From Lachnospiraceae bacterium (GTDB taxonomy: Bacteria; Bacillota; Clostridia; Lachnospirales; Lachnospiraceae): 64,000 nt of DNA. Made by a program: the position numbers and the translations under genes. The notes under the pieces were generated by a model that was not told where the DNA came from, did no database searches, and saw only the letters and a list, made by a program, of their open reading frames with translations. Shown here piece by piece: positions 49,482 through 63,696 of this stretch; within the stretch, counting starts at the first letter, position 1, and every line of letters begins with the position of its first letter. Location: NCBI GenBank assembly GCA_017396555.1, contig JAFQLS010000017.1, positions 107,228 to 171,227 on the forward strand. Reading direction: 5' to 3'.

Positions 49482-50087
49482 ATGATAAATGCAATGAATA
49501 AAGTCACTTATGGTGTATTTGTATTAACAGCTAAAAAGAATGATTACGATAATGGATGTATTATTAATACTGTGTTACAGGTAACAGATAATCCGGAACA
49601 AATTATTGTTGCCGTTAATAAAATAAATTATACACATGATATAATAATGGACACAGGAAGCTTTAATATATCTGTATTAAGTGAAAAATCAGAATTTGAT
49701 ATGTTTAAGCATTTTGGTTTCCAGTCGGGAAGAGATGTTAATAAATTTGATGGCTTTGAAGATTTTAAGCGAAGTAGTAATGGTATTTCATATATAACAA
49801 AGGGAACGAATGCTTATATTTCAGGTAAGGTAAAGCAAACTATAGATATGGGAACGCATACTTTATTTGTGGCTGATGTTACAGAAAAAGAAGTATTAAA
49901 TGAAGACAGCTCGGCAAGCTATGAGTATTATCACAAGAATATAAAGCCACAGGCAAATGTAGAAGCTAATGATAAGAAAAAATGGGTATGTACTGTTTGT
50001 GGATATGAATATGAAGGAGAGGATTTGCCGGAGGATTTTATTTGTCCATGGTGTAAGCATCCGGCTTCAGATTTTGAAAAGCTTTGA
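49482..50087 (+). CDS. Flavin reductase-rubredoxin fusion protein
   Basis: A 201-aa two-domain redox protein: an FMN-binding flavin-reductase-like domain (about 1-150) joined to a rubredoxin (about 160-201) with the iron-binding pairs [11 protein letters not shown] and ICPWCKHP. Such fusions (high-molecular-weight rubredoxins) take electrons from NAD(P)H to flavin to rubredoxin and then to oxygen- or peroxide-reducing partners in anaerobes. A thioredoxin gene follows 16 bp away, supporting an oxidative-stress or electron-transfer role. Confidence 0.88.
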
Positions 50088-50103
50088 TAGGAGGTAGAGA
50101 ATT

Positions 50104-50424
50104 GTGGGAAATGTAATTGGTGTTACTTCAGAAAATTTTGAAAAAGTAATATTACAAAGTGATAAGAAAGTCTTATTAGATTTTTGGGCAACATGGTGTG
50201 GACCGTGTCAGATGTTAGCTCCAATAATTGAACAGTTTGCAGAGAAACACCCGGAATATGCAGTAGGAAAAATTAATGTAGATGAGGAAAAGGAGCTTGC
50301 AATAAAGTATGACATTATGAGTATTCCTACGCTGGTTGTCTTAGACAATGGAAAAGAAATTAACAGATCATCTGGTGTTATTCCTATGGATATGATTTTG
50401 AGGCTAATGAACACAGAGAAATAA
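50104..50424 (+). CDS. trxA: Thioredoxin
   Basis: A 106-aa thiol-disulfide reductase. The active site is WCGPC (Cys32, Cys35), preceded by LLDFWAT and followed by the cis-proline SIPTLVVLDNG. The start is GTG 50104 after AGGAGG. It is reduced by thioredoxin reductase (a trxB is present at 16211) and is cotranscribed with the flavin reductase-rubredoxin gene. Confidence 0.95.
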   Translation: MGNVIGVTSENFEKVILQSDKKVLLDFWATWCGPCQMLAPIIEQFAEKHPEYAVGKINVDEEKELAIKYDIMSIPTLVVLDNGKEINRSSGVIPMDMILRLMNTEK

Positions 50425-54442: not shown

Positions 54443-54964
54443 ATGAGTAACATTTTAGAAAAAATGAAAACAAGAAGAAGTATTAGAAAATTCAAACCTG
54501 ATATGGTTCCAAAGGATATTATTGATAAAATTATTGAGGCAGGAACGTATGCAGCAAGCGGTATGAACACCCAGACACCAATTATTATAGCTGTAACAAA
54601 TAAGGAAATAAGAGATAAGCTTTCTAAAATCAATGCTGAAATTATGAATACAAATAATGATCCTTTTTATGGTGCACCTGTTGTTCTTGTGGTTTTAGCT
54701 CGAAAGAAGCGTACTACCTGTGTATATGACGGAAGTTTGGTTATGGGTAATTTGATGTTAGCAGCGTATGAACTTGGTATTGGAAGCTGCTGGATTCATC
54801 GTGCCAGAGAGACCTTTGAAATGCCTGAATGGAAAGAATGGCTGGAAAGTCTTGGGATTAAAGGGGAATATGAAGGAATAGGAAACTGTGTACTTGGATA
54901 TGTAGATGGTGAATATCCTGAAATTTTACCTCGTATAAAAGACAGGGTATATTATGTTGATTGA
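54443..54964 (+). CDS. Nitroreductase-family flavoprotein
   Basis: A 173-aa FMN-dependent oxidoreductase. ATG 54443 is chosen (8 bp after AAGGAG) over an ATG two codons upstream. Family marks are RRSIRKFKPD at the start, the dimer/FMN block AASGMNTQTPII, GSCWIHRARETFE, and a late GYVDGEYPE. Natural substrates are unknown. Its stop codon overlaps the -35 of the following promoter. Confidence 0.88.
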   Translation: MSNILEKMKTRRSIRKFKPDMVPKDIIDKIIEAGTYAASGMNTQTPIIIAVTNKEIRDKLSKINAEIMNTNNDPFYGAPVVLVVLARKKRTTCVYDGSLVMGNLMLAAYELGIGSCWIHRARETFEMPEWKEWLESLGIKGEYEGIGNCVLGYVDGEYPEILPRIKDRVYYVD

Positions 54965-54989
54965 CCTTTTGGTTTACAAGGTGTATAAT
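54961..54989 (+). promoter_or_regulatory. Promoter of the hydrogenase-maturation operon
   Basis: TTGACC (54961-54966), 17-bp spacer, TATAAT (54984-54989); predicted start near 54996, leaving a leader of about 130 bases. Confidence 0.85.
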
Positions 54990-54995
54990 ATCTAC

Positions 54996-55110
54996 GACTC
55001 CTGACACAAAGAGAGTTCTGAGTGAAAGGTGACGGATTAACATGTATATAGTGGCAGTATGCCGTTTATTTTCCGTACCTTTTTCGAAAGATTAAGGTAC
55101 GTTTTTATTT
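54996..55110 (+). promoter_or_regulatory. Attenuator-like leader RNA upstream of hydE operon
   Basis: The terminator stem is CGTACCTT (55074-55081) with AAGGTACG (55094-55101), then TTTTTATTTT. An upstream segment AAAGGT-G-ACGGA (55025-55036) is complementary to TCCGTACCTTT (55072-55082) over 11 bp with one bulged G and would destroy that terminator. It encloses a GGCA-GTA-TGCC hairpin (55053-55063). The 5' part can form an ACTC/GAGT stem. No known riboswitch class was recognised. Ligand or trigger unknown. Confidence 0.7.
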
Positions 55111-55128
55111 TGTATGAAAGGAGATAGT

Positions 55129-55386
55129 ATGGAAACGCGAGTAGCAGTAATGAGCATTATAGTTGAGAATAATGATTCTGTGGAGACATTAAATAATTTG
55201 TTACATGAATATAATCAGTATATCATCGGACGTATGGGAATTCCGTATCGTCAGAAAAATATTAGTATAATTAGTATTGCTATAGATGCTCCTCAAAATA
55301 TGATATCAACGCTTTCGGGTAAGATAGGCAAGCTATCAGGAATAAGCGTGAAAACTGCATTTTCCAGTGTGACTTCTAATGAATAA
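55129..55386 (+). CDS. TM1266-type iron-only hydrogenase system regulator
   Basis: An 85-aa ACT-like small protein from ATG 55129 (AAAGGAG upstream), matching the putative [FeFe]-hydrogenase regulator family named for Thermotoga TM1266: RVAVMSIIVEN, then NNLLHEYNQYIIGRMGIPY, and ISIISIAIDAP.  Its first position in the hyd maturation operon is typical of the family. It overlaps hydE by 8 bp, so translation is coupled. Its biochemical role is not established. Confidence 0.88.
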   Translation: METRVAVMSIIVENNDSVETLNNLLHEYNQYIIGRMGIPYRQKNISIISIAIDAPQNMISTLSGKIGKLSGISVKTAFSSVTSNE

Positions 55387-56428
55387 AGAGATTGTATTGC
55401 TAATAGATAAATTAGCTAAAAATAATTCCCTTACAAAAGATGAGTATTATAAATTACTTGTGGATATAGGAAATGAAGAAGTGAAATATTTAACGGAAAA
55501 AGCGAGAGAGGTTAGAGAAAAATATTATGATAAGAAGGTTTTTATTAGAGGTCTTATAGAGATAAGTAATATATGTAAAAATGATTGTTATTACTGTGGA
55601 ATAAGGCGAGGCAATGTGAAATGTGACCGTTACAGACTAAGTAAAGAAGATATTCTTGAGTGTTGCAGAGAAGGTTATGAATTAGGCTTTCGTACCTTTG
55701 TTATGCAGGGAGGCGAGGATGCATATTTTTCAGATGAAATTCTTGTTGATATCATTTCAGAAATAAAAGCAAGCTGGCCAGATTGTGCTGTTACGCTGTC
55801 GCTTGGAGAAAGAAGCCGAGAAAGCTATATGCGTTTATATGAGGCAGGGGCAGATAGATATCTTCTTAGACATGAAACAGTTAATAAAGAGCATTATGCT
55901 AAGCTTCATCCTGAGAATCTCAAATGGGAAAAACGAATGGAGTGCCTCAGATGGCTAAGAGAAATAGGCTTTCAGGTAGGTTGTGGCTTTATGGTGGGGT
56001 CGCCTTACCAGACGCTGGAAATGATTGCTGATGAGCTTAAATTTATAGAAGAATTTAAGCCTGATATGTGTGGAATTGGACCATTTATACCACATAAAGA
56101 GACAATATTTAAGGACGAAAAGGCTGGAGATGTTAGCTTAACCTGTATTTTATTAAGTATAATAAGGCTTATTCATCCTATGATTTTATTACCGGCAACG
56201 ACAGCACTTGGAACTATGTCTGAAAACGGCAGAGAAAAGGGTATTCTTTCGGGAGCAAATGTAGTAATGCCAAATCTTTCGCCGGCATCAGTTAGAAAGA
56301 AATATATGTTATATGATAATAAGCTATCAGATGGAGCAGAGTCAGCACAGGCAAAAGCAAGTTTGGAAGCAAGAATAAATTCTATCGGATACAAGGTCGT
56401 AGTAGATAGAGGAGATGTAATAAGATAA
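55379..56428 (+). CDS. hydE: [FeFe] hydrogenase maturase HydE
   Basis: Radical SAM enzyme that, with HydG and HydF, builds the H-cluster; acts on an iron-cysteine precursor made by HydG. At 349 aa, it has the cluster motif CKNDCYYC (Cys66, Cys70, Cys73), RYRLSKEDI, MQGGED, CGFMVG and DMCGIGPFIPH. It overlaps the TM1266-type gene and is followed by hydG after 19 bp. Confidence 0.96.
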   Translation: MNKEIVLLIDKLAKNNSLTKDEYYKLLVDIGNEEVKYLTEKAREVREKYYDKKVFIRGLIEISNICKNDCYYCGIRRGNVKCDRYRLSKEDILECCREGYELGFRTFVMQGGEDAYFSDEILVDIISEIKASWPDCAVTLSLGERSRESYMRLYEAGADRYLLRHETVNKEHYAKLHPENLKWEKRMECLRWLREIGFQVGCGFMVGSPYQTLEMIADELKFIEEFKPDMCGIGPFIPHKETIFKDEKAGDVSLTCILLSIIRLIHPMILLPATTALGTMSENGREKGILSGANVVMPNLSPASVRKKYMLYDNKLSDGAESAQAKASLEARINSIGYKVVVDRGDVIR

Positions 56429-56447: not shown

Positions 56448-57905
56448 ATGGCAATTTATGATCCTAAATCACGTAAAGCAGAGGAGTTTATTAATGATGA
56501 GGAGATAAGAGCAACTCTTGAATATGCTGAGGCAAATAAAAATAATGTGGAGTTGATTGATGAGATTCTTGAAAAGGCTCGCCCAAGAAAGACAGAAGAT
56601 GGATGGAATTGTGCAGGTCTTACACATAGAGAAGCATCAGTTCTTTTAGCTTGTGAAATTCCCGAGAAAATCGAAAAAATATATGAGATAGCAGGAGAGA
56701 TTAAGCAGGCATTTTATGGCAATCGTATTGTTATATTTGCACCTTTATATTTATCTAATTATTGTGTGAATGGTTGTGTATACTGCCCATATCATATGAA
56801 GAATAAGACTATACCTCGTAAGAAGCTTACACAGGAGGAGATTCGTCAGGAGGTTATAGCATTACAGGATATGGGACACAAGCGTCTTGCGATAGAAGCA
56901 GGAGAGGATCCTAAGAATAATCCTCTGGAATATATATTAGAAAGCATCAAGACAATATATAGTGTTCATCATAAAAATGGTGATATTAGACGTGTAAATG
57001 TTAATATTGCGGCAACAACTGTAGAAAATTATGCTAAGTTAAAGGATGCCGGAATTGGTACTTATATATTATTCCAAGAGACTTATCACAAGGAAAGCTA
57101 CGAAAAATTACATCCAACAGGTCCTAAGAGTAATTATGCTTATCATACAGAGGCACATGACAGAGCAATGGAGGGCGGAATTGATGATGTAGGTCTTGGT
57201 GTATTATTTGGACTTGAGCTTTATAAATATGAATTTGCAGGGCTTCTTATGCATGCAGAGCATTTAGAGGCTGTATTTGGTGTTGGGCCACATACAATCA
57301 GTGTGCCACGTCTTAAGAGAGCAGATGATATTAATCCGGATGATTTTGATAATGGAATATCTGATGAAACATTTGAGAAAATTACAGCGTGTATACGTCT
57401 TGCAGTGCCATACACAGGTATTATCATTTCTACAAGAGAATCTGAAGAGGTTAGGGGAAAGCTTCTTAAACTGGGCGTATCACAGGTTAGTGGTGGCTCG
57501 CGTACTTCTGTAGGTGGATATGCCGGATATTCAGATGATGAAAGACCACACGATACAGAGCAGTTTGACGTATCAGATCAGCGTTCACTAGATGAGGTGG
57601 TTCGCTGGCTTATGGAAAATGGACATATTCCTTCGTTCTGTACAGCATGTTATCGTCTTGGACGTACAGGCGACAGATTTATGAGCTTATGCAAAACGGG
57701 GCAAATAGGTAACTGTTGTCATCCAAATGCACTTATGACACTTACAGAATATCTTGTTGATTATGCAAGTGAGGAAACTAAGGAAATAGGTCATAAGGTG
57801 GTTGAAGAGGAGCTTAAAAATATCCCAAGAGAAAAAACAAGAGAAATAGCAGCAGAAAATATAGAGTTAATCAAGAATTCAAATGGTAGAGATTTCCGTT
57901 TCTAA
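56448..57905 (+). CDS. hydG: [FeFe] hydrogenase maturase HydG
   Basis: Radical SAM tyrosine lyase that makes CO and cyanide for the H-cluster and an Fe(CO)2(CN)-cysteine synthon. At 485 aa it has the SAM-cluster motif CVNGCVYC (Cys106, Cys110, Cys113), a TIM barrel, and the C-terminal second cluster-binding block CTACYRLGRTG followed by the Cys of SLCKTG. The start follows AAGGAAG. A related enzyme, ThiH, lacks the C-terminal second-cluster module, which supports HydG. Confidence 0.97.
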   Translation: MAIYDPKSRKAEEFINDEEIRATLEYAEANKNNVELIDEILEKARPRKTEDGWNCAGLTHREASVLLACEIPEKIEKIYEIAGEIKQAFYGNRIVIFAPLYLSNYCVNGCVYCPYHMKNKTIPRKKLTQEEIRQEVIALQDMGHKRLAIEAGEDPKNNPLEYILESIKTIYSVHHKNGDIRRVNVNIAATTVENYAKLKDAGIGTYILFQETYHKESYEKLHPTGPKSNYAYHTEAHDRAMEGGIDDVGLGVLFGLELYKYEFAGLLMHAEHLEAVFGVGPHTISVPRLKRADDINPDDFDNGISDETFEKITACIRLAVPYTGIIISTRESEEVRGKLLKLGVSQVSGGSRTSVGGYAGYSDDERPHDTEQFDVSDQRSLDEVVRWLMENGHIPSFCTACYRLGRTGDRFMSLCKTGQIGNCCHPNALMTLTEYLVDYASEETKEIGHKVVEEELKNIPREKTREIAAENIELIKNSNGRDFRF

Positions 57906-57923: not shown

Positions 57924-59123
57924 ATGAGCATGGAAAATACAGTGTCAGCAGAAAGGCTTCATATAAGCTTCTTTGGAAGAAGAAATGTAGGTAAATCAAG
58001 TCTTGTAAATAGAATAACAGGTCAGTCATTGTCGGTTGTATCAGATGTACTTGGTACAACTACAGACCCGGTTAAGAAGTCTATGGAGCTTTTGCCTCTT
58101 GGACCCGTAGTTATTATAGATACACCGGGCTTTGATGATGAAGGAGAGCTTGGTCAGCTTCGTGTGCAGAAAACGAAGGAAATACTTACTAAGACGGATA
58201 TTGCAGTATTTGTTGTAGATGCTTCTAAGGATTTATCGGATGAAGAGAAGAAATTTATTGTGGATTTAGATAATAAGAAAATACCTTATGTAGTGGTATA
58301 TAATAAGAGTGATTTATTAGCAGAGATGCCTAGCGAAAAGGACAACTCAATCTGGGTCAGTGCAAACACTTCATATGGTATTGAAGCTCTTAAAGAAAAG
58401 CTAGGTGAATTGGCTAAGAAGAATAATAATTGTAAGAGGATTATAGCGGATTTATTGAAGGAAGGCGATATGGTAGTGCTTGTTACACCTATTGATGAAT
58501 CTGCCCCTAAAGGACGCCTTATTTTACCACAACAGCAGACTATTCGTGATATTTTAGATGCTAAATGCACAACAGTAGTGTGTCAGGTAGAGGAGTTGCA
58601 GGGTGTGCTTGAACTTTTAAGAAAACCTCCTAAAATGGTTGTTACAGATTCTCAGGCTTTTGGCAAGGTTGCGAAGATTGTACCAAATGATATACCACTT
58701 ACATCCTTCTCAATATTATTTGCAAGGTATAAAGGAGATTTAGCTATTCTTGTGCAAGGTGCCGCAATGCTATCTAAATTAAAGGATGGAGATAAGATTC
58801 TTATTTCTGAGGGCTGTACACATCACCGTCAGTGTGGTGATATTGGTACTGTTAAAATGCCGATGTGGATATCAAAATTTGCTGATGCAGATATTCAGAT
58901 GGAATTTACTTCCGGTGGAGAATTTTCGGAGGATTTATCAGAATATAAGCTGGTTGTACATTGTGGTGGCTGTATGCTGAATGAGACAGAGATGAAGAAC
59001 AGGATATTAACAGCCGTCGAAAAGGGAGTACCGATTGTAAATTATGGTGTGGCTATTGCACATATGAATGGAATACTTAGGAGAAGTCTTGAGTTATTTC
59101 CTGAGGTAATGGAGTTGTTGTAA
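57924..59123 (+). CDS. hydF: [FeFe] hydrogenase maturase HydF (GTPase scaffold)
   Basis: Scaffold on which the diiron subcluster is assembled and handed to HydA. At 399 aa: N-terminal GTPase domain with GRRNVGKSSL (about residues 18-27), VLGTTTDP, DTPGFDD and NKSD; dimerisation domain; and C-terminal [4Fe-4S] domain with CTHHRQC and HCGGCM. It follows hydG at 18 bp and ends the operon. Confidence 0.97.
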   Translation: MSMENTVSAERLHISFFGRRNVGKSSLVNRITGQSLSVVSDVLGTTTDPVKKSMELLPLGPVVIIDTPGFDDEGELGQLRVQKTKEILTKTDIAVFVVDASKDLSDEEKKFIVDLDNKKIPYVVVYNKSDLLAEMPSEKDNSIWVSANTSYGIEALKEKLGELAKKNNNCKRIIADLLKEGDMVVLVTPIDESAPKGRLILPQQQTIRDILDAKCTTVVCQVEELQGVLELLRKPPKMVVTDSQAFGKVAKIVPNDIPLTSFSILFARYKGDLAILVQGAAMLSKLKDGDKILISEGCTHHRQCGDIGTVKMPMWISKFADADIQMEFTSGGEFSEDLSEYKLVVHCGGCMLNETEMKNRILTAVEKGVPIVNYGVAIAHMNGILRRSLELFPEVMELL

Positions 59124-59422: not shown

Positions 59423-61192
59423 TTATACTTCATTAAAGCCAACTCTTGCACTGTATGTTGTGTGTAAAAGTTCATGAGCTTTGTGTGAGTTAGGCTCACC
59501 TAAGAACTCATCATAAAGGGCTTTAATCTGAGGATTGTTGTGTGACTGACGAAGTGTCTGTCTTTCGTCCTCACTGTAAAGAGCCTGAGCTCTCTTTTCC
59601 TTATAAGTATCAAGGATATCGTCATCTTCATTTGGTAAGAAGCATGATCTTACGATTGGCTGACCGCCACCTGCGATACATCCGCCAGGACAACCCATGA
59701 TTTCGATAAAGTGATATTTTGACTTACCGGCACGGATATCATCAAGTAATACCTTAGCATTCTTCATACCATGAGCAATTGCTACATTAACAACTGTTCC
59801 GTTGATATCGATAGAAGCTTCCTTGATTCCTTCAAATCCACGAACCTGTTCGAACTTGATAGCTTCGTGTTCTTTTCCTGTCAATACAAAGTATACAGTT
59901 CTAAGAGCAGCTTCCATAACACCACCAGTTACACCGAAGATAACGCCAGCACCTGTGTAGTCACCCATAAGATCCTGATCGAATTCTTCATCTGGTAAGC
60001 GGTTGAAGAGGATACCGGCACGTTTAATCATACGAGCAAGTTCACGTGTTGTTAATACAGCATCAACGTCCTTGATTCCGTCTTTCTGCATCTGATCACG
60101 TTCTTTTTCATCCTTCTTAGCTGTACAAGGCATAATAGAAACAACGAAAATATCCTTTGGATCAATGTTATTCTTCTCAGCGTAGTATGACTTAATAATT
60201 GCACCCTGCATCTGGTGTGGTGACTTACAAGAAGATAAGTGAGGGAGAAGATCTCCGTAGTTATATTCTGCATAGTTAATCCAACCTGGTGAACAAGATG
60301 TAATCATTGGTAATGTTCCACCATTTTTAATTCTAGATAAAAGCTCTGTACCTTCTTCCATAATTGTAAGATCGGCAGCAAAGTTTGTATCATATACTTT
60401 GTCAAATCCAAGACGTTTAAGAGCAGCAACCATCTTTCCTGTAACAGCAGTTCCAACTGGCATACCGAATTCTTCACCAAGAGCAGCACGAACAGCAGGA
60501 GCAGTCTGTACAACTACATGCTTACCAGCCTTCATAGCTTCGTCAACCTTAGCTATCTCGGATTTTTCCATTAAAGCACCTGTAGGACATACGCTTACAC
60601 ACTGACCACATAAGATACATGGTGAGTCAGCCATAGAGCGATTCTCAGCAGGAGCAACAATTGTTCTAAAGCCACGGTTTTCGAATCCAAGAATACCCAT
60701 TCCATGAGCGTTCTCACATCTTGCAACACAACGACCACATAAGATACATTTTGAAGTATCTCTTATAATAGATGGTGTAAGTTCATCAATTGTAACAGGT
60801 GTCTTAGTACCCTGATATTTACCTTCACGAGCACCTGTAATGTAAGCAACATTTAATAACTCACACTGACCATTTTTATCACACTGCTGGCAGTCCTGAT
60901 TGTGGTTAGAGAGCAGAAGCTCTACAGATGCACGACGTGCTTCAGATGCACGTGGAGTAGAGATATGGATGTCCATTCCCTCGTTTACAGGGTAAACACA
61001 GGAAGCAACAAGACCTCTAGCACCAGTTACCTCAACCAAACATACACGGCAGGAACCATTTGAACATTCACCATGATTGAATGCACATAAAGAAGGAATC
61101 TCGTATCCACAGGCTTTTGCAGCTTCAAGAATGGTTAATCCTTCTTCAACCTGATAAGATACACCTTCGATTTTAATATTTATCTTAGCCAT
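59423..61192 (-). CDS. hydA: [FeFe] hydrogenase catalytic subunit HydA (trimeric, NAD-linked type)
   Basis: Catalytic subunit making or oxidising H2. At 589 aa: N-terminal [2Fe-2S] domain (CxxxxGxC patterns CAFNHGECSNGSCRVC), His-ligated cluster block HNQDCQQCDKNGQC, two [4Fe-4S] clusters (CILCGRCVARC; CILCGQCVSVC), then the H-cluster domain with L1 TSCSPGW, L2 MPCTAKKDE and L3 EIMGCPGGCIAGGGQP. The second Cys of the usual L1 pair reads Ser. With HydB and HydC, this subunit composition is typical of NAD/ferredoxin-dependent, often electron-bifurcating, hydrogenases. Bifurcation is inferred. Confidence 0.96.
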   Translation of the reverse strand: MAKINIKIEGVSYQVEEGLTILEAAKACGYEIPSLCAFNHGECSNGSCRVCLVEVTGARGLVASCVYPVNEGMDIHISTPRASEARRASVELLLSNHNQDCQQCDKNGQCELLNVAYITGAREGKYQGTKTPVTIDELTPSIIRDTSKCILCGRCVARCENAHGMGILGFENRGFRTIVAPAENRSMADSPCILCGQCVSVCPTGALMEKSEIAKVDEAMKAGKHVVVQTAPAVRAALGEEFGMPVGTAVTGKMVAALKRLGFDKVYDTNFAADLTIMEEGTELLSRIKNGGTLPMITSCSPGWINYAEYNYGDLLPHLSSCKSPHQMQGAIIKSYYAEKNNIDPKDIFVVSIMPCTAKKDEKERDQMQKDGIKDVDAVLTTRELARMIKRAGILFNRLPDEEFDQDLMGDYTGAGVIFGVTGGVMEAALRTVYFVLTGKEHEAIKFEQVRGFEGIKEASIDINGTVVNVAIAHGMKNAKVLLDDIRAGKSKYHFIEIMGCPGGCIAGGGQPIVRSCFLPNEDDDILDTYKEKRAQALYSEDERQTLRQSHNNPQIKALYDEFLGEPNSHKAHELLHTTYSARVGFNEV

Positions 61193-61208
61193 TTGAACGT
61201 CCTCCCTA

Positions 61209-63089
61209 TTACTTCTTAACTATTGCACTAAATTTACATGTTGCAATACAAGCACCACACTTAACACACTTGTTTGCATCTATCTGGAATGAAGCAAGCT
61301 TCTTGCCAGGAGCAACATAATCTGTTCTTTCGATGCAATTTGCTGGACAACTCTTAGCACATACACCACAACCAAAACACTTGTCCTGAATAATAGTATA
61401 CTGCATTAAGTTCTTACATACCTTAGCTGGACATGTCTTGTCATTAATATGAGCAAGATATTCATCCTTGAAGTGTGTAAGAGTAGAGATGATAGGGTTA
61501 GCAGCAGTCTGTCCAAGAGCACATAAAGAGTTGCCCTGAACATACTGTCCGAGTTCTTCAAGCTCTTCAAGATCCTGCATAGTACCTTTTCCTTCTGTAA
61601 TACGAGTAAGAATCTCAAGCATTCTCTTTGTACCGATACGACATGGAGAACACTTACCACAAGATTCATCGCAGATAAATTCCATGTAGAACTTAGCTAC
61701 GTCAACCATACAGTTATCTTCGTCCATAACGATAGCACCACCAGAACCCATCATAGATCCCTTAGCAACTAAGTTATCAAAGTCAATAGGCTCGTCAAGC
61801 ATATCAGCTGTTAAACAACCACCTGATGGTCCACCAGTCTGGATAGCCTTGAATGCCTTACCGTCTGGAATACCACCACCGATATCGTAAACGAGTTCAC
61901 GAAGAGTAGTACCCATAGGAACTTCAACAAGCCCTACATTGTTAACTTTACCACCGAGAGCGAATACCTTTGTACCATGAGAAGCTTCTGTTCCGCATGA
62001 TGCAAATGCATCCTTACCTTCACGTAATATATAAGGAACACATGCAAGTGTCTCAACGTTATTAACTACAGTTGGTTTGCCCCAAAGACCCTTTACAGCT
62101 GGGAAAGGAGGTCTTGGACGTGGCATACCACGCTTACCTTCAATAGAGTTAAGAAGAGCAGTCTCTTCACCACAAACGAATGCTCCGGCACCAAGACGGA
62201 TATTTGCACGGAAGCTAAAGCCTGTACCCATAATGTTATCGCCAAGGATACCCATTTCAGTCATCTGTTCAATAGCCATACGAAGTCTGTTAACTGCAAT
62301 TGGATACTCAGCACGAACATAGAAGTAACCTTCTGATGCTCCAATAGCGTAACCAGCAATCATCATACCTTCGATAACTGCAAATGGATTACCTTCAAGG
62401 ATAGAACGATCCATGAATGCACCTGGGTCACCTTCGTCACCATTACATACAACGTATTTCTGGTCAGCTTCATTAGCGTAAGCAAAAGACCATTTACGTC
62501 CAGTAGGGAATCCGGCACCACCACGACCGCGTAAGCCGGCTTCAAGTACTTCATCAATAACTTCCTTAGGATCCATAGATAAAGCACGCTTTAAGCCCTG
62601 AAATGCACCCTTACCGATTGCTTCATTAATATCTTCAGGATTAATAACACCACAGCCATCAAGAGCAATTCTTTTCTGCTTCTTATAGAATGTGATATCA
62701 TCCTGCTTTACAACCTTTTCATTTGTTGCAGGATCAACGTAGAGCAGACGCTCAACGATATTACCCTTCTTAATATCTTCTTCAAAGATTTCCTCAACGT
62801 CATCAATAGTAACAAGACGATAAAGAGTATCTTCTGGGAAAATCTTTACGAATGGTCCCTGTGAACAGAAACCGAAACATCCAACTATGTTAACTGTAAC
62901 CTTGTCGCCCATATTATTATCAGCAACTAATTTTTCAAATTTTTCTTTAATCTGTAATGAATCAGAAGAAATACATCCTGTACCACCACAAAGAAGAATA
63001 GCACGTTTTCCATTAGAACCATCTATCTTACTTGTGAGTGCGTCGGTACAACTACAAATTTTTGCGTCTAATTCGTCAAATGTCTTCAT
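61209..63089 (-). CDS. hydB: NADH-linked hydrogenase flavoprotein subunit HydB
   Basis: A 626-aa NuoF-like subunit that oxidises or reduces NAD(H). N-terminal thioredoxin-like [2Fe-2S] domain (CGGTGCISSDS; CFGFCSQG), the FMN/NAD module with GRGGAGFPTGRKW, GNGDEGDPGAF-like CNGDEGDPG and EETALLNSIEGKRG, the [4Fe-4S] site CDESCGKCSPC, and two C-terminal ferredoxin clusters (CFGCGVCAKSC; CVKCGACIATC). Stop of hydC and start of hydB overlap as TAATG. It is 16 bp upstream of hydA. Confidence 0.96.
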   Translation of the reverse strand: MKTFDELDAKICSCTDALTSKIDGSNGKRAILLCGGTGCISSDSLQIKEKFEKLVADNNMGDKVTVNIVGCFGFCSQGPFVKIFPEDTLYRLVTIDDVEEIFEEDIKKGNIVERLLYVDPATNEKVVKQDDITFYKKQKRIALDGCGVINPEDINEAIGKGAFQGLKRALSMDPKEVIDEVLEAGLRGRGGAGFPTGRKWSFAYANEADQKYVVCNGDEGDPGAFMDRSILEGNPFAVIEGMMIAGYAIGASEGYFYVRAEYPIAVNRLRMAIEQMTEMGILGDNIMGTGFSFRANIRLGAGAFVCGEETALLNSIEGKRGMPRPRPPFPAVKGLWGKPTVVNNVETLACVPYILREGKDAFASCGTEASHGTKVFALGGKVNNVGLVEVPMGTTLRELVYDIGGGIPDGKAFKAIQTGGPSGGCLTADMLDEPIDFDNLVAKGSMMGSGGAIVMDEDNCMVDVAKFYMEFICDESCGKCSPCRIGTKRMLEILTRITEGKGTMQDLEELEELGQYVQGNSLCALGQTAANPIISTLTHFKDEYLAHINDKTCPAKVCKNLMQYTIIQDKCFGCGVCAKSCPANCIERTDYVAPGKKLASFQIDANKCVKCGACIATCKFSAIVKK

Positions 63090-63577
63090 TAGTTTGCACC
63101 TCCCATAGCTCTATATTCTTCAACAACAGGAGCTACCATATCAACAGTCATCTTAGGATAAACCTTACCATTGATTGTAACTGCTGGAGCGATACCGCAA
63201 GCACCTATACAACGTAAAGAGTCGATTGTAAATAAGCCGTCCTTAGATGTCTCACCAGGAGCAATCCCAATAATTTCTGAGAATTTGTCAATAATCTGCT
63301 GAGCGCCCTTAACATAGCAGGCTGTACCCATACAACAACCAATTACATATTTGCCTTTTGGTTCAAGTGAGAAGAAAGAGTAGAAAGTAACAACACCGTA
63401 AATCTCTGCAACGGAAATGCCTGTCTTCTCTGATACAATTTGTTGTACATCCAATGGTATGTAACCATATTCGTTTTGGATGTCACTTAAAATCATCATA
63501 AGCGGTGTCTTTTCGTTTGCGTATCTGTCGCAGATTTCACAAATTGTCTTTACACCTGCTTCGCTGATCTTAGCCAT
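63089..63577 (-). CDS. hydC: Hydrogenase subunit HydC (NuoE-like)
   Basis: A 162-aa NuoE-like [2Fe-2S] protein passing electrons in the HydABC complex. The start is ATG 63577 after AAGGAGG; an upstream in-frame ATG at 63685 would lie in the leader and lack such a site. Key features: helical N-terminal domain, then the thioredoxin-like domain with CMGTACYVKGA and the second pair CIGACGIAP, giving four cluster cysteines. First gene of the operon, overlapping hydB by one base. Confidence 0.95.
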   Translation of the reverse strand: MAKISEAGVKTICEICDRYANEKTPLMMILSDIQNEYGYIPLDVQQIVSEKTGISVAEIYGVVTFYSFFSLEPKGKYVIGCCMGTACYVKGAQQIIDKFSEIIGIAPGETSKDGLFTIDSLRCIGACGIAPAVTINGKVYPKMTVDMVAPVVEEYRAMGGAN

Positions 63578-63696
63578 AATAACCCTCCTTGCTGTGTTTT
63601 TATCTGTAATGGATATTTTACAGACACACGTATAGTAATGTACATAGATATTGTCTAAAAATAGGCATAGTACGACCTTGTACATTCTTAATATAT

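Follow-up and report, generated by a model that had tools for sequence, protein, structure and literature searches.

A predicted transcription attenuator with a conserved pseudo-symmetric hairpin upstream of [FeFe]-hydrogenase maturation genes, and the adjacent small sensor protein as its probable reader

What is the role of an intrinsic terminator placed between a near-consensus promoter and the genes for maturation of the [FeFe]-hydrogenase H-cluster? The question is raised by a locus in the 64,000-nucleotide stretch of Lachnospiraceae DNA analysed here (the window), for which an initial annotation, made from the letters alone, had proposed a new riboswitch or attenuator. The features of the locus are as follows.

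54961..54989, + strand: sigma-70-type promoter, TTGACC-17-TATAAT (11 of 12 consensus positions)
55000..55029, + strand: conserved pseudo-symmetric hairpin, predicted anti-antiterminator (models R1 and R2; covariation)
55025..55036, + strand: antiterminator 5' strand, AAAGGTGACGGA (pairing; co-varies with the terminator arm in 58 leaders)
55072..55082, + strand: antiterminator 3' strand, TCCGTACCTTT (overlaps the terminator 5' arm)
55074..55110, + strand: intrinsic terminator, stem 55074-55101 plus U-run (z -4.87)
55117..55124, + strand: TM1266 ribosome binding site, AAAGGAGA (read from the sequence)
55129..55386, + strand: TM1266-family protein, putative regulator with a NikR-C-like sensor domain (TIGR03959, PF21699)
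55379..56428, + strand: hydE (TIGR03956, 573 bits)
56448..57905, + strand: hydG (TIGR03955, 899 bits)
57924..59123, + strand: hydF (TIGR03918, 564 bits)

In a 4-kb scan that listed 23 promoter-like sites (15.5 expected) the promoter ranked first, and transcription is expected to start near 54996. The terminator stem consists of 8 bp, a 2x2 loop, 2 bp and a GAAA loop, followed by TTTTTATTTT; its energy of -13.7 kcal/mol was equalled by 0 of 200 shuffles. A simple consensus terminator scan left this terminator out, probably because the loop limit of the scan is 8, and listed a weaker terminator-like site at 55050-55066 (one found, 1.7 expected by chance), which is the GGCA/TGCC hairpin of the initial annotation. 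The sequence AAAGGT-G-ACGGA (55025-55036), whose first five bases double as the 3' strand of the conserved hairpin, was found to form 11 Watson-Crick pairs with TCCGTACCTTT (55072-55082) around one bulge, and an equally long pairing to the fixed terminator arm appeared just twice when the leader was dinucleotide-shuffled 2000 times. As this antiterminator occupies the terminator 5' arm, the two structures are mutually exclusive. The promoter, leader and terminator before TM1266 and hydE, and the one-bulge, 11-bp antiterminator incompatible with the terminator, were thus borne out as initially described. In folds of the growing transcript the minimum-energy state contained the hairpin at 55072, the antiterminator at 55085-55092 and the terminator from 55100. 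The stability of the whole leader exceeded that of its shuffles only modestly (z -2.0), 8 of 200 being as stable; the case for an attenuator rests on homologues.

A DNA search with the leader alone against 61 relatives returned the window itself and weak short matches only (best E 0.001); the genus-level search set was the window's own genome alone. Loci were collected with HydE, the top 80 being taken from 584 confirmed stretches, and with TM1266, which was present in 202 of 397 genomes of the window's family and from which 30 loci, the window's included, were taken. Upstream of TM1266 a recurrent block was observed, [C/U/A]CU-GA-CAY-NA-AGN-loop-NCU-G[A/C]-[G]UG-AA-AG[G/A/U], which folds as a single hairpin of P0 (3 bp), a GA/AA loop, P1 (3-4 bp), an AA/GA loop and P2, with a terminal loop that varies among homologues. 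In the window this is the 30-nt hairpin at 55000-55029, CCU-GA-CAC-AA-AGA...UCU-GA-GUG-AA-AGG, with P0 CCU/AGG, loop GA/AA, P1 CAC/GUG, loop AA/GA and P2 AGA/UCU. It is this hairpin, and not the ACTC/GAGT stem of the initial annotation, that is the conserved 5' element; the ACTC/GAGT and GGCA/TGCC (55053-55063) stems can form but, by eye, are not conserved in the homologues inspected.

Covariance model R1 was built from 34 hairpins, some of them picked with the hairpin in mind; 95.1% of their cells pair, compared to 84.3% when shuffled, and two-sided changes are seen in 6 of the 9 pairs. The sequences scanned with R1 were the window, all 80 HydE loci and 9 family loci selected by eye from the 30; at E ≤0.01 the model gave a single match in each of 48 sources. 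The hairpin proved recurrent in Clostridia, being matched in 41 of these 80 top-ranking HydE loci, of which 29 were training members and 12 new. The motif stood directly before hydE with no adjoining TM1266 in L091, L105 and L123, and in L110 only at E 0.13. In an alignment of 79 matches (78 distinct), 91.5% of cells were paired compared to 77.6% when shuffled, with two-sided changes in 8 of 9 pairs; sliding the partners abolished this pairing signal, and RNAalifold predicted 7 pairs of the hairpin, of which 6 change on both sides. The 79-match alignment leans towards the model because it was fitted to it, while the 34-sequence test is free of that bias but has fewer sequences; A2 includes one probably spurious match (L100 4646-4667). 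The window hairpin scored 42.9 bits with R1 and 40.3 bits with the broader model R2, being a training member of both. R1 was rejected for diverged leaders as too sequence-specific (28 matches at E ≤5 on 80 leaders).

The switch was then assessed in a set of 60 leaders, from which L091, L094 and L149 (no evident terminator; ribosome-site type) and L157 and L160 (3' end unfitted) had been dropped. A terminator was predicted in 58 of the 60, compared to a mean of 19.0 in ten shuffles, and stems below -10 kcal/mol were present in 54 compared to 4.9 when shuffled. L103 and L105, in which no terminator was detected, were left out of the pairing test (n=58), in which 13 nt starting at the AAAGG/AAAGA of the hairpin were paired with the terminator 5' arm. 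Pairing was stronger with a leader's own arm (mean -10.58 kcal/mol) than with permuted arms (-7.90 kcal/mol; z -8.8). None of 20000 permutations reached so low a mean, although the leaders are related and the permutation value is therefore no clean probability. A control strand from the hairpin showed little difference (own -3.57, permuted -3.35 kcal/mol). The own arm was best or tied in only 6 of the 58 leaders (median rank 6.5), as many leaders share the consensus sequence. At the variable fifth base the strand-arm combinations were G-C in 25, A-T in 9 and G-T in 5, mismatched in 6, with the simple pattern missing in 13. The hairpin 3' strand covaries with the terminator arm, and the hairpin is therefore assigned the role of an anti-antiterminator. 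In at least one relative (L149) the hairpin 3' strand (AAAGGTGG) is itself the ribosome site of the next gene, hydG (631 bits), and no terminator was evident by eye; this suggests that the closed hairpin is the OFF state, and in relatives of this type the same switch would act by translational control with the same sign. Covariation in the alternative stems (8 of 9 hairpin pairs, and the antiterminator with the terminator arm) and a conserved sequence 5' of the terminator (the hairpin 55000-55029), on both of which the initial annotation had made its proposal depend, are accordingly present.

The distribution of the motif was determined genome-wide. Over the window's own genome R1 found this site only, plus a chance match at E 7. 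Convergent to the maturation operon, at 59423-63685 on the - strand, the window carries the gene of a group A6 NADH-dependent [FeFe]-hydrogenase, accompanied by NuoF-like and NuoE/HoxE-like genes; no match to R1 or R2 was found at these hydrogenase genes. Further off (49482-50424) lies the gene of a flavin-reductase-like protein with a C-terminal rubredoxin-like part, and a thioredoxin gene comes after it. Among 391 genomes of the class, R1 matched 23 at E ≤0.01, once in each. Outside the window, 18 of the 22 matches were linked, standing before TM1266 (14), hydG (2), hydE (1) or hydF (1), and when 15 of the 18 linked hairpins were compared with the training set none was identical. The four unlinked matches (L153, L162-L164) were set aside, lying by eye in the coding sequence of other genes. 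Among 259 genomes of the phylum, R2 at E ≤0.005 matched the window and 8 others, 6 of the 8 linked: before TM1266-hydE (1), before hydE (2), before TM1266 followed by a HydG-family gene (2) and between TM1266 and a FecCD permease gene (1). The two unlinked matches (L324, L325), one in coding sequence and one before an unrelated ORF, were discarded.

Some of the linked sites extend the gene context. In G507 the motif and a terminator-like stem precede aspA-hydF; clustering of aspA with hyd genes has been described, and aspartate ammonia-lyase can in vitro supply the nitrogen of the dithiomethylamine ligand of the H-cluster (PMC11736057). Two genomes, G557 (L313) and G776 (L160), carry motif-TM1266-FecCD operons and have no HydG match at 1e-100, which indicates that the motif follows TM1266 rather than the hydrogenase alone. 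Further downstream in the G557 operon are genes for an ABC ATPase with a TM1266-like domain (PF21699) at its C-terminus, a NifH-like protein and a nitrogenase-component-1-like protein. On the reverse strand of L323 (G856), at about 1184-1700 of the reversed locus, TM1266, the motif, a terminator-like stem and a FecCD permease gene follow one another, and this is another lineage tying TM1266 and the motif to metal or cofactor transport. From such gene neighbourhoods, TM1266 may be a general metal or cofactor sensor domain.

The motif and TM1266 are usually adjacent. Of the class genomes, the 19 that have a linked R1 motif (window included) all encode TM1266, compared to 236 of 391 overall (P = 6e-5), a co-occurrence that is trivial where the gene lies beside the motif. 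Given HydG, the class-wide R1 association was weak (15 of 189 genomes with TM1266, 0 of 49 without; P = 0.045), and a strict R1 match (E ≤0.01) was present in just 19 of the 236 TM1266 genomes, looser variants existing. R2 was tested on 40 HydG genomes with TM1266 and 40 without (drawn from the 189 and 49), and linked matches were found in 10 and 1, respectively (Fisher P = 0.007), compared with unlinked matches in 3 and 5. Three genomes of the TM1266-positive set (G427, G497, G519) had supplied R2 training sequences, G427 giving no match; with these removed the linked counts were 8 of 37 and 1 of 40 (P = 0.012). The unlinked R2 matches in these HydG genomes (L289-L293, L300, L305, L306) were dismissed by eye as coding or upstream of unrelated genes. 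The motif precedes hydE while TM1266 is encoded elsewhere in G732 (class set) and in G797-G800 (outside the class set), and in G583, G714 and G623 it precedes hydE, hydG or hydF with TM1266 at another site or not the next gene downstream. The TM1266 genes encoded apart from the motif have, as judged by eye, no full motif in front of them; L170 has a fragment, CCTGACAGTAAAGG. One possible exception to the co-occurrence is G608 (L288), the single TM1266-negative genome with a linked R2 match, in which the motif is followed directly by the hydG ribosome site and TM1266 was not detectable in an assembly 93% complete; other species of its genus do carry TM1266.

The hairpin is pseudo-twofold symmetric, both strands reading GA-NNN(N)-AA. 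The symmetry parser, which favoured such letters when choosing the length of P1, handled 49 of the 60 hairpins: the lower 5' loop was GA in 46 of them, the upper 3' loop had G as its first base in 46, and each of the two remaining loops ended in A in all 49. As read from these sequences, such symmetry suits a dimeric protein. The window's TM1266 product scored 115.3 bits with TIGR03959 (curated cut-off 60.8) and 111 bits with PF21699. Its AlphaFold (AF2) model (pLDDT 94.8) is beta-alpha-beta-beta-alpha-beta, and a Foldseek search with it returned 2nzc, TM1266 of Thermotoga maritima (E 3e-10), then NikR metal-binding C-domains (E about 1e-5) and then ACT-type proteins such as IlvN. As modelled, the 85-residue protein is a sensor-type domain: it shares the fold of the NikR C-terminal sensor domain but lacks NikR's DNA-binding domain. 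R4, R35 and K75 are among 11 columns invariant in 44 TM1266 sequences. A joint change of the TM1266 gene with hydE, hydF and hydG under CO2 is listed for Thermotoga neapolitana (PMC7039931), and a TM1266 homologue has been called a transcription factor by homology (PMC9679718). No experimental function for TM1266 was found in the portions of the literature searched.

That a cis-acting transcription attenuator, in which antiterminator and terminator exclude each other, lies upstream of the [FeFe]-hydrogenase maturation genes is well supported by the comparisons above. If the hairpin is held closed, the antiterminator would be blocked, the terminator would fold and the H-cluster maturation operon would be off; if it is open, the antiterminator would form and the operon would be read. 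This RNA switch is probably read by the small sensor protein encoded next to the leader. We infer that TM1266 is the binder of the hairpin and that bound means off. In the reading we prefer, with a probability of about 0.6, attenuation would be PyrR-like: on a ligand signal a TM1266-type dimer (an NikR-C/ACT-like sensor) would bind and stabilise the pseudo-twofold symmetric hairpin and turn off the maturation genes, a negative feedback on H-cluster maturation. The ligand would be tied to that process (iron, an Fe-S or organometallic intermediate, or other). A fuller version, for which the odds are about even, takes TM1266-type proteins as a new family of RNA-binding attenuation proteins that sense ligands. 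As NikR-like sensor domains which lost, or never had, a DNA-binding domain, they would grip the pseudo-palindromic hairpin as dimers and, at a high level of their cofactor signal, would shut off hydE, hydG, hydF and aspA-hydF and, elsewhere, FecCD transporter or nitrogenase-like operons.

Several other explanations were weighed against this PyrR-like mechanism. That promoter and terminator are the whole of the control and the alternative pairing is due to chance would suit the modest stability of the whole leader, but is refuted by the covariation and the genome-wide specificity of the motif, and its probability is close to nil. Attenuation through a leader peptide would call for the short ORF at 55042 (MYIVAVCRLFSVPFSKD), whose ATG in the window does have a purine-rich stretch, AAAGGTG, upstream; a Shine-Dalgarno-like site with an ATG was, however, present in 23 of the 60 leaders, the peptides differ by eye in sequence and length, and in L103 the ATG is the TM1266 start itself. 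With the short ORF unconserved among the 60 leaders, this explanation was disfavoured and is highly improbable. The pseudo-symmetry also resembles that of the ribonucleic antiterminators bound by dimers, and the hairpin might be recognised by a protein other than TM1266 (of the PTS antiterminator type, ribosomal or other); no such regulator was found among the eight window proteins scanned, and the co-occurrence of motif and TM1266 is near complete, which makes this improbable.

The main rival is a true riboswitch, in which the hairpin or tandem hairpins would bind a small molecule directly and TM1266 would be a mere neighbour or an independent sensor. Conserved internal loops with an expression platform typical of riboswitches, the occurrence of tandem copies and the motif in G608, where TM1266 was not detectable, speak for it, whereas the hairpin is very small and pseudo-symmetric, its terminal loop is variable, and the motif tracks TM1266 even in genomes with no HydG match; we regard it as possible but rather unlikely. 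Mediation by TM1266, which the initial annotation had mentioned in passing, fits better, given the symmetric hairpin, the co-occurrence even when TM1266 lies at another site in the genome, the TM1266 operons with no HydG match and the sensor-only fold, with TM1266 as the presumed binder. Of the original alternatives of riboswitch or attenuator, it is the attenuator that has been strengthened by the homologues, the covariation and the lack of an Rfam match, while the riboswitch is left as a rival.

As to known RNA classes, in the window, 16 relatives' loci and 20 further loci, tRNAs alone reached the gathering threshold of Rfam 15 (T-box included), so that the initial statement that no known class was recognised is upheld across the window and 36 loci. 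When the 501 bases surrounding the leader were searched permissively, nothing credible emerged, the top match being PyrR RF00515 at 20 bits (gathering threshold 54; E 2.3). In pyr attenuation the PyrR gene is first in its operon and attenuators can recur before other genes of the pathway. The present leader resembles that system (RF00515) in its anti-antiterminator/antiterminator/terminator logic, here in silico, and in a regulator gene placed first in the operon; it differs in sequence and structure, in having a NikR-C-like protein and in an operon of TM1266-hydE-hydG-hydF rather than PyrR with pyrimidine genes. The RAT of BglG/LicT systems, the binding of which antiterminates, is a small pseudo-symmetric hairpin that contains two internal loops and cannot form together with a terminator. 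The hairpin described here shares these structural traits, but it is an anti-antiterminator lying apart from the terminator, and no PRD/PTS-type protein was present among the scanned window proteins. Like transcriptional riboswitches, the leader combines a conserved, covarying sensor domain with an expression platform of exclusive terminator and antiterminator; unlike them, it matches no Rfam class, its sensor is a single 30-nt hairpin and a protein is the likelier partner. A Moco RNA motif, likewise a predicted RNA before clostridial hydrogenase genes, has been placed before the hydrogenase cluster of Eubacterium limosum (PMC5651825); as described there it is a known Rfam class before structural genes, whereas the present leader has no Rfam match and precedes maturation genes.

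Word searches of the main text of two surveys of bacterial structured RNAs (PMC8632094, PMC11109978) found hydrogenase, hydE and hydG absent, and the literature search returned no publication linking TM1266 to a riboswitch, hydE to an RNA motif, [FeFe] to an antiterminator or hydrogenase maturation to an attenuator. With no match in Rfam or the literature, the leader would be a new RNA element of the attenuator kind, probably with a new kind of trans-acting protein. No description of RNA-level control of H-cluster maturation was found in the literature searched, and such control bears on how anaerobes set their H2 output. If the mechanism is true, TM1266, which family databases term a putative hydrogenase system regulator, gains a concrete RNA target and a testable mechanism, and the NikR sensor domain joins the protein folds acting on RNA; the small symmetric hairpin could also serve as a compact, portable genetic switch.

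Leader diversity was assessed in 110 TM1266 leaders from class genomes (the 30 top-ranked loci and 80 further places). A strict type-A descriptor matched 14 of the 110, compared to a shuffle mean of 1.2 (0 to 6; 20 shuffles) and 0 on the antisense strand; this count is biased downwards because ten genomes with a known motif (G000, G452, G524, G525, G600, G612, G623, G714, G732, G763) were skipped among the 80. A Clostridium-like type B (CUGA-n-CAC-GA-GGG...CCC-AA-GUG-...AAGGC) was present in 15 of the 110 (antisense 0, shuffled 0.0), a control that tests chance only, since the pattern was written after viewing the same leaders. Both types occurred together in L194 only, at least one was present in 28 of the 110, and the remainder fitted neither pattern.

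Variation in the hairpin was also observed. Tandem hairpins of similar architecture stand upstream of TM1266 in L106, L111, L118 (by eye only), L119 and L131, the 5' copies carrying a different P0, GCU/AGC or GUU/AAC; a tandem also occurs in L225. A variant hairpin, CCUGACAYGAGG...CCGANGGAAAGG, is present in L070, L087, L094, L124, L137 and L120, its flanks kept and the Watson-Crick pairing of P1 largely lost, and in L120 (Coriobacteriaceae) it overlaps the TM1266 ribosome site. The type-B hairpin is highly conserved in L185, L188, L194, L203, L206, L214, L218, L220, L235 and others (for example CUGAAUGCACGAGGGUUAGUCCCAAGUGGUAAGGC), and its AAGGC is apparently able to pair within the terminator.
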